Shown here piece by piece: positions 2,132-4,379 of a stretch of DNA of 8,429 nt; within the stretch, counting starts at the first letter, position 1; each line of letters opens with the position of its first letter. The notes below the pieces were generated by a model, which was not told the origin of the DNA, ran no database searches, and saw only the letters and a program-made list of their open reading frames with translations. The stretch comes from an uncultured Pseudomonas sp. (GTDB taxonomy: Bacteria > Pseudomonadota > Gammaproteobacteria > Pseudomonadales > Pseudomonadaceae), in the NCBI GenBank assembly GCA_946886875.1, contig CAMPJN010000151.1, positions 1 to 8,429 of the forward strand, read 5' to 3'. A program made the position numbers and the translations under genes.

Positions 2132-2914
2132 TCAGGTGCCCGCGAGCATCACTCCTTCGTACTGGTTGGTCAGCTCATGCATCTGCCACAGCAGGGTTTC
2201 GGTGGTGGTGGAGATCACCGTGGGCACGTAGCGCGAGTCCGCCGAGAGTTTGAAACCGGCGCGAGTGAAGCGCCATTGGGTTTCGGCGTGCTGCAGGCCT
2301 TCGGCAATGGCCGGGGTGTTCTGGTTGGCTTGCTGCAGTTCCTGCAGTGCCTGTTCGAATTCGTCCACCGCCTGGTTGAAGGCTGACTCTAGGCCATTGA
2401 CCGGCAGGCGCCAGCTCATCGCCAGGTAAAGTTTGGCGATGCGTTGGCTGAGCATGCGCTGGCGGCCGCTGCGGTTGACCAGGCGCGCGCTTTGTCCGCC
2501 GCTATGGCGTTCGAGCAGTTGCACCACGTTCTCGCTCTGGGCCAGCAACTGGTCACTGAGTTCGAGCATCCTCAGCGCTTGCTGTTTATTGGGCCGCGAG
2601 AGCGCCAGTTCGCGGTATTGCTGCCAGGTTTGCCCGGCCTCGGCCAGCGCCGTTTTGATCTGCGCGGTGGGCGCGTATTCGCTCAGCGCCAGGTAATTAC
2701 TCTCGAATTTGGCGATGCTTTGGTCGAGTTGCTCTTCGGCTTGCTCGGGGCGAACTTCGGCGCCGATCATCAGGTAGGTTTTGGCGATACGCTGGCTGAG
2801 CATACGCTGCATGCCGGACAGGTTCATCGCCTCAGCGGCGCTGATCGCCGCCGAGCTGGGGAAGCTGAGCAGGGTGAGGCTAAGCAACAGGCCGGAAATA
2901 ATGGGCTTGAGCAT
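2132..2914 (-). CDS. Secreted protein with tandem PilJ/NarX-like sensor modules, no output domain
   Basis: The chosen start is ATG 2914-2912, because AGGAG (2926-2922) lies 7 bases before it and the next residues form a signal peptide (MLKPIISGLLLSLTLLSFPSSA); an upstream ATG at 2956 would put 14 unlike residues ahead of it. The product is 260 residues. It contains the same motif twice, 116 residues apart: SGMQRMLSQRIAKTYLM (33-49) and SGRQRMLSQRIAKLYLAM (149-166). This is the hallmark of the PilJ N-terminal family and resembles the periplasmic P-box of NarX/NarQ (AGSLRMQSYR), whose arginine contacts nitrate or nitrite. The rest is predicted long helices rich in Q, E and L. There is no second membrane span, HAMP, kinase or MCP signalling domain, so it should be a free periplasmic protein. 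It follows the porin gene by 75 bases. Family call is good; ligand and role are inference. Confidence 0.82.
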   Translation of the reverse strand: MLKPIISGLLLSLTLLSFPSSAAISAAEAMNLSGMQRMLSQRIAKTYLMIGAEVRPEQAEEQLDQSIAKFESNYLALSEYAPTAQIKTALAEAGQTWQQYRELALSRPNKQQALRMLELSDQLLAQSENVVQLLERHSGGQSARLVNRSGRQRMLSQRIAKLYLAMSWRLPVNGLESAFNQAVDEFEQALQELQQANQNTPAIAEGLQHAETQWRFTRAGFKLSADSRYVPTVISTTTETLLWQMHELTNQYEGVMLAGT

Positions 2915-2989: not shown

Positions 2990-4228
2990 TCAGTAGCTGT
3001 ACTGCAGTTGCACCCAGAGCTTGTCGGTATCCACGGCGAAGTCGTCGGCATCGTAACTGGCGTATTTGACCAGGCCGACGAGGCCTTTCACGCCCGGAAT
3101 CGGGTGGGCGTAGGACAAGTCGATCTCTTCGCCGTACTGGCTGCTGCCCTTCTCGGCGCGGAAGTCGTGGTACCAAGCCGCCAGGGTGCCGCCGAACAGC
3201 GGCGCGCTGCCGCCGACATAGGCGTCCTTGATGCCGTCGGGTGGGGTCAGCAGGAAGATGTCGGCCCAGCCCTGGAACGCGTGCTTGGTCGCCAGCGGTG
3301 TCTGGAAGGCGCGGTTGCCCGGTCCTTCGTCGCCGCCGAGTACTTCGTAGCCGCCTTTCAGAGCCACGCCTTTGATCGTGTAGCCCAGTTCGGCCAGGTA
3401 GTAGTCGCTGTCCTGATCGCGGGTATTGTCGGAGTAGTCGCTGAGGTCGCTTTGCTTGGCGTATTCCAAGGCGTAGCTGACACCGGAGACCGCACCGTTG
3501 AGGCGCAGGCCGGTGGTCTTGCTCGACTGGCCGCCAGCGGCGAGGTTGTCCAGGCCCAGGCGGTATTGATAGGCGGTCACGGTCAGCTCGGGCATCACCA
3601 TGTACTGGGCGTTGAGCAGGTGGCTGTGGCCTTCGATATTGGCCTGGTTGGCGGCGGTGTCGAAGCGGCCGTTACCGGGGCCGAAGATGCTGTTGATATT
3701 GTCGATATAGGCGTAGGTCAGGGTCAGGCCTTCCAGTGGTTTCAGTTGCCCGAGCACGCCGTCGTAGGTCTGCTCGTTCTGCCGCCAAGCCACGCCGCCG
3801 ACGAAGCGCTGGTTGTCCAGGTTGATGCGCTGGCGACCGAGCACGGCGCTACCGTATTTATGCTCGTAGCGCAGCAGCGCCTGGTTGATTTCAGTGCCGT
3901 CCGGGTCGGCGACCACGGAATAGTCGGTCTGGCCATTACGGAAGCTGTTGTAGCTGGCATCGCCGATGCGGCTGACATTGTCCGCCTCGATCAGCGCCGA
4001 GAGGCCGTACCATTTACCGCTCTGGAAACCGACGCGGGTGCGGATGGTCTGGGCGTTGGCATTGTTCAGGGCGTTGTCCTGGTCGACATGCTCATAGCGG
4101 TAGCGCAGGTCGAGGATCGGCTTGCCCTGGGTGAACAGGTTGCTGAATGCCTCTTCGGCGAGGGCGGCGTGGCTGAGGGTGCTGCTGGCAACGGCCAGCG
4201 ACAACAGGGTCAGTTTCATCATGCGCAT
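2990..4228 (-). CDS. Outer-membrane porin, alginate-export family type
   Basis: The start chosen is ATG 4228-4226, giving MRMMKLTLLSLAVASS; AGGAAG (4240-4235) lies 6 bases before it, and the 26 extra residues of the longer frame are leader RNA. The product is 412 residues with a signal peptide ending ALA-EE (cleavage after about residue 24). The mature part has alternating beta-strand patterns throughout (LDLRYRYEHVD, TIRTRVGFQSG, ALLRYEHKYGSAVLGRQRINLDNQRFVGGVAWR, LTLTYAYIDNIN, YYLAELGYTIKGVALKGGYEVL) and ends in QLQYSY, the terminal aromatic typical of outer-membrane barrels. The GRQRINLDNQRFVGG region is typical of the alginate-export (AlgE-like) family, most members of which are uncharacterised channels rather than alginate exporters. 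No alginate genes are nearby. The sigma-54/ANTAR-like leader and the NarX-like neighbour suggest a nitrogen compound, perhaps nitrate or nitrite; this is inference. Confidence 0.85.
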   Translation of the reverse strand: MRMMKLTLLSLAVASSTLSHAALAEEAFSNLFTQGKPILDLRYRYEHVDQDNALNNANAQTIRTRVGFQSGKWYGLSALIEADNVSRIGDASYNSFRNGQTDYSVVADPDGTEINQALLRYEHKYGSAVLGRQRINLDNQRFVGGVAWRQNEQTYDGVLGQLKPLEGLTLTYAYIDNINSIFGPGNGRFDTAANQANIEGHSHLLNAQYMVMPELTVTAYQYRLGLDNLAAGGQSSKTTGLRLNGAVSGVSYALEYAKQSDLSDYSDNTRDQDSDYYLAELGYTIKGVALKGGYEVLGGDEGPGNRAFQTPLATKHAFQGWADIFLLTPPDGIKDAYVGGSAPLFGGTLAAWYHDFRAEKGSSQYGEEIDLSYAHPIPGVKGLVGLVKYASYDADDFAVDTDKLWVQLQYSY

Positions 4229-4257: not shown

Positions 4258-4311
4258 AAAAAAAAACGTCACAGCGCCCGCTTCTCCGAAAGGGAGGGGG
4301 TGCCATGACGT
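4258..4311 (-). terminator. Leader terminator (attenuator) upstream of the porin gene
   Basis: On the minus strand a long imperfect hairpin runs from ACGTCATGGC (4311-4302) to its partner ending TGACGT (4271-4266). An inner CTCC/GGAG stem is closed by CTTTC. It is followed by nine T's (4266-4258). It is a textbook intrinsic terminator in the leftward direction only; rightward there is no T-run. It lies about 30 bases before the porin ATG, and no leftward gene precedes it in the window, so it must act on the porin's own leader. Its 5' arm overlaps the 3' arm of the upstream hairpin at 4323-4304, as expected for an antitermination switch. Confidence 0.8.
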
Positions 4312-4350
4312 CGTTGTCGGATGTGTGGCAGACACGCCGTTGTGCTGACC
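4304..4350 (-). promoter_or_regulatory. ANTAR-type tandem hairpin antiterminator RNA in the porin leader
   Basis: Two successive minus-strand hairpins. P1: GG-t-CAGCAC (4350-4342), hexaloop AACGGC (4341-4336), GTG-t-CTG-CC (4335-4327), eight pairs with single-base bulges. P2: CAT-cc-GAC (4323-4316), hexaloop AACGAC (4315-4310), GTC-ATG (4309-4304). Three bases separate them. Both loops have A at position 1 and G at position 4, the signature described for RNA targets of ANTAR-domain proteins (NasR, NasT, AmiR and EutV types). P2 uses GTCATG, which is also the 5' arm of the terminator at 4311-4258, so protein-stabilised P2 would prevent termination. No ANTAR gene is in the window. Confidence 0.75.
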
Positions 4351-4362
4351 GGGGTTGGTCTT

Positions 4363-4379
4363 AGCAGGAGCCGTGCCAA
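4363..4379 (-). promoter_or_regulatory. Sigma-54 (RpoN) promoter of the porin gene
   Basis: On the minus strand TTGGCACGGCTCCTGCT (4379-4363) matches the consensus YTGGCACGRNNNTTGCW at 16 of 17 positions. The invariant GG (4377-4376) and GC (4365-4364) are 12 bases apart as required. The predicted start is near 4352, two bases before hairpin P1, giving a leader of about 124 bases. An enhancer-binding activator (for example NtrC) would be required. Confidence 0.82.

Follow-up and report, generated by a model that had tools for sequence, protein, structure and literature searches.

What is an ANTAR-type antitermination leader doing in front of an outer-membrane channel gene, and what would such a channel carry? 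The question arises in an 8,429-nucleotide stretch of DNA from an uncultured Pseudomonas sp. (the window, by which we mean the whole stretch analysed). On its minus strand, a leader (4350-4258) is followed by a porin gene (2990-4228) and next by one encoding a periplasmic protein (2132-2914), the pair being flanked by glpK and a phzF-like gene. The closest homologues of the porin belong to Pseudomonas or to metagenome bins near Pseudomonas. The intergenic DNA after glpK (1940-2035) is rich in palindromes and by eye resembles REP-type repeats. The features of the locus are as follows.

4362..4377, minus strand: putative sigma-54 (-24/-12) promoter, GGCAC-N6-TGC, read from the sequence, with a predicted start site near 4352
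4305..4377, minus strand: match to Rfam RF03032 narK RNA (promoter, hairpin 1 and hairpin 2), found with cmscan
4327..4350, minus strand: ANTAR hairpin P1, 8 pairs, hexaloop AACGGC at 4341-4336
4307..4318, minus strand: ANTAR hairpin P2, 3-pair stem (GAC/GTC), hexaloop AACGAC at 4315-4310
4258..4311, minus strand: intrinsic terminator that takes in the 3' strand of P2, its 5' arm starting from within the P2 loop
2990..4228, minus strand: outer-membrane channel of the Alginate_exp family (PF13372), predicted 18-strand barrel
2132..2914, minus strand: tandem PilJ/NIT-like protein of the periplasm, with two near-N-boxes (MNLSGMQRMLSQ, VNRSGRQRMLSQ), a candidate nitrate binder

In the available excerpts of PMC3369931 and PMC8934654, ANTAR target RNAs are defined by A1 and G4 in the hexaloops, by stems with 3 or more pairs and by a terminator that overlaps. 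The leader contains two such hairpins, each with at least 3 pairs, and an intrinsic terminator that overlaps hairpin 2 and ends in nine T (T run 4266-4258, minus strand). The original prediction had described both hexaloops, AACGGC and AACGAC, with A1 and G4 in each, and a terminator sharing its 5' arm with the second hairpin; all of these are present at 4350-4258 of the minus strand. Its spacing of three bases between the hairpins was wrong, as the minimal stems are separated by a linker of eight unpaired bases (hairpin 1 ends at 4327 and hairpin 2 starts at 4318). Its span of 4258..4352 encloses the hairpins and the terminator, but the element reaches upstream to 4377 once the promoter is counted.

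A structure search for two ANNGNN hairpins (at least 3 pairs each) with a terminator overlapping hairpin 2 found a single place in the window, which is this leader. Dinucleotide shuffling of the leader (5000 times) or shuffling of the whole window (60 times, both strands) never reproduced the full arrangement. Short hairpins with a hexaloop are frequent, and dual hairpins without the terminator requirement occurred in 65 of the 5000 leader shuffles, as one might expect if chance hairpins happened to precede an ordinary terminator; since the overlapping terminator accompanied them in none of the 5000, the probability of such a coincidence is negligible. The minimum free energy structure from RNAfold consists of hairpin 1 and the terminator (-34.8 kcal/mol). 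Forcing both hairpins gave -24.6 kcal/mol, and this penalty of about 10 kcal/mol fits the expectation for a default-off attenuator.

Upstream of the hairpins lies GGCAC-N6-TGC, which we take to be a sigma-54 promoter by comparison with the consensus. In the window leader, the GG and GC elements stand at the -24/-12 spacing. From the -24 GG to hairpin 1 the distance is 27 nt, both in the window and in the loci with the leader; an automated measurement gave this value in 26 of 33 loci and stopped at a more upstream motif in the other 7, where the 27-nt motif is visible as well. The predicted start of transcription, near 4352, lies two bases ahead of hairpin 1 and would place P1 at the extreme 5' end of the RNA. 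NtrC-like sites were sought upstream at five spacings: the best was found in 21 of 35 related rows, compared to 8.9 in shuffles, and the other four were enriched little or not at all.

The covariance search called for by the original prediction hit this very spot with a model of nitrate-gene leaders: cmscan reported an end-to-end match to RF03032 narK RNA (41.0 bits, E 3.5e-5), a score just below the gathering score of 43.2. The Rfam structure pairs only hairpin 1 of the two hairpins. Because the first 16 positions of the match have the form of a sigma-54 promoter, RF03032 appears to mix an untranscribed promoter (positions 1-16) with an ANTAR element. Rfam narK RNA thus gains a candidate function and mechanism, namely a sigma-54 promoter plus a NasT target. 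The promoter had been overlooked in the earlier reading, as had the downstream PilJ/NIT-like gene and the copies with FNR-type boxes described below.

The leader is conserved in homologous porin loci. Among the best 80 of 589 confirmed porin relatives, 33 loci carry it, in addition to the window. As the original prediction required, both hexaloop hairpins are kept in the homologous leaders: A1 and G4 are retained in the P1 loop of all 33 aligned leaders and in the P2 loop of 31, the exceptions being AACAAC in L006 and GACGAC in L066. All 8 P1 pairs and the P2 pairs are invariant among 31 distinct porin leaders, and this conservation refutes the chance-hairpin reading. A C-A mismatch adjoins stem 2 in 29 of the 33. 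The terminator pairs do vary, with double changes in 4 of 13 pairs and 90.3% of cells paired. Natural losses in the second hexaloop also occur elsewhere: G4 is lost through AACAAC in L162 as in L006, and A1 through GACGAC in L172, from the same genome as L066. Such losses offer a natural test of which loop matters.

Moreover, the leader leads back to the porin when the search starts from the RNA. A scan with the P1 sequence pattern of two overlapping samples of 398 genomes matched 23 and 32 genomes, and the reversed pattern matched none in either sample. In the 45 P1-pattern loci examined, some of which share genomes with the 80 homologue loci, the porin lies downstream of the leader in 44; the sigma-54 box was present in 45, the second hairpin in 44 and a run of at least 6 T in 43. 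In L054 and L176 the promoter and P1 are kept and P2 is absent, L176 also being devoid of a six-T run. No porin was found in 40 sampled leaderless genomes, in a search that had no positive control.

Which regulator would read this leader? We surveyed 19 genomes reached through porin loci and 14 control genomes. RF03032 sites were found in all 19 at E up to 1 and scored above the cut-off in 17, compared to matches in 6 of 14 controls at E up to 1, none of them above the cut-off. Within the 19, the 15 leader-bearing genomes all have an RF03032 match at the porin (30.9 to 44 bits), of which one exceeds the gathering score and 14 fall below it. All 60 sites at E up to 0.005 in the 19 genomes precede nitrate-assimilation genes or this porin; 48 were assigned by a protein motif at most 1200 bases downstream and 12 further porin sites by locus evidence or coordinates. 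The porin therefore appears to belong to the nitrate regulon of NasT, in line with the original prediction: nitrate-assimilation genes of the same genomes carry the same leader. The 53 motif-judged sites (the 48 and five weaker ones) precede narK/nasA (18), nasS-like (16), nrtA-like (11), nas reductase (4) and porin (3) genes, with one unclassified; the gene labels rest on motifs and a reading of the translations, except for nasS-nasT of L111. In one genome, two narK-RNA sites lie about 700 bases apart on the same strand before a narK-like gene (G019:C13:302349 and 303054, in L120).

A strict two-hairpin rule was passed by 41 of the 53 regulon leaders and failed by 12, although the hairpins picked in a few of the 41 are not the expected pair. 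A run of at least 4 T is present in 52 of 53. The P1 pairs differ between regulon leaders and yet stay paired, the third pair being GT, TA, GC, AT or CG. Thus the compensatory changes that the original prediction had asked for exist between different regulon leaders only, because the hairpin stems of the porin leaders never vary.

The genomic company of the leader points to the same regulator. In the P. resinovorans group (L017, L018, L021, L026, L027, L031) the porin adjoins NasS/NrtA-family genes, and in two members (G010, G011) nasT is about 4 kb from the porin leader. ANTAR proteins were found in 16 of the 19 surveyed genomes and in none of the 14 controls. The suggested look-up of nasT was less telling: NasT at 75% identity or more is encoded in 43 of 47 leader-bearing relatives and is equally common in leaderless genomes (34 of 40), so that its presence proves little. 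Judging from these relatives, the window's own genome presumably carries nasT. On sequence evidence, the leader shared with known nitrate-assimilation genes counts for more than NasT presence. Five of the 15 leader-bearing genomes have two ANTAR matches, which leaves some room for the leader being read by another ANTAR protein, such as AmiR, with nitrate irrelevant. As nine of the 15 have a single match, and the leader resembles nas leaders in promoter, loops and terminator, we regard this as very unlikely. We are highly confident, from these comparisons, that the leader belongs to the NasT regulon and works as an ANTAR antitermination switch.

The next question is what the switch controls. 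The porin matches Pfam Alginate_exp (PF13372) with 36.3 bits (cut-off 25.2), and the family named in the original prediction holds; the predicted barrel, however, is as near to the OprD/Occ uptake channels as to AlgE, or nearer. A sequence search of the PDB gave no match to the porin up to an E of 1. With 47 D+E against 31 K+R the porin is net negative, so that an anion channel is not favoured by this count, which covers the whole protein.

The periplasmic protein matches the PilJ domain of McpN and the NIT domain of NasR, and its fold is fitted equally well by PilJ, which does not bind nitrate. The arginines of its near-N-boxes, R37 and R153, are invariant in 30 aligned sequences and equivalent to R61 of McpN, the first by alignment with McpN and the second by motif. 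The strict N-box, [IVL][ND]xAGxQRML[ST]Q (PMC6381276), is absent from the protein of the window and occurs at least once in 8 of the 30 aligned sequences. From fold and conserved arginines, the protein may well bind nitrate.

The PilJ-like gene lies downstream in 21 of the 33 leader loci. In one further locus (L178, 1501-2540) the leader directly precedes the PilJ-like gene, with a short porin remnant between them, which ties both genes to the leader. One could take this locus, where nearly all of the porin is lost, as a sign that the PilJ-like protein is the main player, sensing or buffering nitrate in the periplasm, and that the porin is a general channel which accompanies it. This is rather improbable, as the porin is kept in 12 of the 33 leader loci where no PilJ-like gene is in view, two of which (L053, L072) end within the porin so that the gene could not be observed. 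In P. resinovorans DSM 21078 (L018:5296-7208), the place of the PilJ-like gene after the porin is taken by genes for an MCP-signal protein of 414 aa and a protein of 223 aa that matches no family.

Leaderless homologues of the porin often have a different upstream signal. We scanned 43 leaderless loci with full upstream DNA and 35 leader rows for TTGA[TC]N4[AG]TCAA, the consensus of an FNR-type box. The box is present in 24 of the 43 leaderless loci (shuffle mean 0.035, maximum 1 in 200 shuffles) and in none of the 35 leader rows. With two mismatches allowed, FNR-like boxes were found in 8 of the 35 leader rows, compared to 3.3 in shuffles. The neighbourhoods differ as well. The 4-kb flanks contain genes for NarX/NarL-like, Dnr-like, PilJ-chemoreceptor or DGC proteins in 16 of the 24 loci with an FNR-type box, in none of the 33 leader loci and in 7 of the 23 others; the corresponding counts for nas/nrt-family genes are 0 of 24, 6 of 33 and 2 of 23. 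The query proteins were verified by family, and we use Dnr-like for a regulator of the Crp/Fnr family. A protein with a DGC domain (PF08859) is encoded close to several of the porin copies with an FNR-type box (L047:6942-7370, L019, L037, L040, L043, L058).

Both kinds of copy occur, one each, in six genomes (counted by accession), and the leader label requires at least 8 switches on the tree. Environmental strains with two copies include P. tumuqii and Pseudomonas sp. 8AS. In two of the six genomes the copies are nearly identical over a defined tract. L004 and L010 share 98.3% identity over the mature porin only (tract L004:4103-5228), and L012 and L019 share 97.1% over the mature porin and the PilJ-like gene (tract L012:4073-6123). 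In both pairs the leaders, signal peptides and flanks are at background identity. The remaining four same-genome pairs are 92, 78, 78 and 77% identical in the aligned stretch, and a leader copy and a copy with no box (L046/L041) are 75% identical. The two near-identical pairs look as if gene conversion had acted between the copy for assimilation and the one for respiration; this would be sensible if both carry the same ion.

These copies bear on the cargo. Barrels of the Occ/OprD type have organic acids and amino acids as their main cargo. A barrel fold near theirs and a negative net charge would suit a genuine NasT target whose porin carries something else needed during nitrate use, such as an organic source of nitrogen or carbon, a compound of molybdenum or iron, or nitrite on its way out of the cell. 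Against this, the FNR-box copies adjoin regulators of nitrate/nitrite respiration and are near-identical to the assimilatory copy in two genomes, and the operon partner has the fold of a nitrate sensor; another cargo is therefore unlikely. Nitrate and nitrite are the common factor of the respiratory and assimilatory settings, and the physiological substrate of the channel is probably one of the two.

We consider it quite likely, from the combined sequence evidence, that a NasT-responsive ANTAR switch under a sigma-54 promoter drives an operon passing nitrate, possibly nitrite, across the outer membrane. Under nitrogen limitation, NtrC and sigma-54 would initiate transcription a couple of bases ahead of hairpin 1. 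When nitrate is lacking, NasS would hold NasT, the RNA would fold into hairpin 1 and the terminator, and transcription would stop before the porin. When nitrate is present, NasT would be released and bind hairpins 1 and 2, the terminator would be blocked, and the porin and the PilJ-like periplasmic protein would be made. The porin would then admit nitrate, and the tandem NIT-like protein would bind it in the periplasm, aiding capture or sensing. More broadly, we lean towards a dedicated outer-membrane module for nitrogen oxyanions, made of a selective barrel and a periplasmic tandem nitrate-binding protein. In some genomes it would exist as two copies, one under sigma-54 and NasT for assimilation when nitrogen is limiting and one under FNR-type control for nitrate respiration, with mature sequences homogenised by gene conversion and promoters and signal peptides kept apart.

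The general view is that nitrate passes the outer membrane by way of non-specific porins. A search of the open-access literature, most subscription journals being outside its scope, found no nitrate or nitrite porin by name. The kind of ANTAR RNA described here is already known; what would be new is an outer-membrane module dedicated to nitrate. An assimilation switch on one copy and a respiration-type switch on the other make a dedicated nitrate channel directly testable, and the locus supplies a compact operon, a leader that can serve directly as a reporter, and a periplasmic protein to assay.

The dual-hexaloop targets of EutV, NasR and AmiR, as far as the excerpts of PMC3369931 and PMC8934654 describe them, likewise have two A1/G4 hairpins and a terminator over the second. 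Unlike those RNAs, the leader described here precedes an outer-membrane channel gene, and its P1 is predicted to lie at the start of a transcript that depends on sigma-54. Control of nas and nos operons by NasS-NasT (PMC3795266, PMC6759348, PMC5424462, in their accessible parts) likewise involves a NasT-type leader with a sigma-54 box and antitermination; here, nasT lies some 4 kb from the porin leader in some relatives. In the accessible text of PMC6759348 and PMC5424462 the word "porin" is absent and "outer membrane" occurs once, for a gene raised in a B. diazoefficiens nasT mutant. The PilJ-like protein shares with the PilJ domain of McpN and the NIT domain of NasR the fold, the N-box core and the N-box arginine. 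Unlike them, it is a predicted soluble periplasmic tandem with no signalling output, has a porin as neighbour and misses the strict N-box. Finally, the porin differs from the 18-strand Occ/OprD and AlgE porins in being preceded by a NasT-type leader or an FNR-type box.
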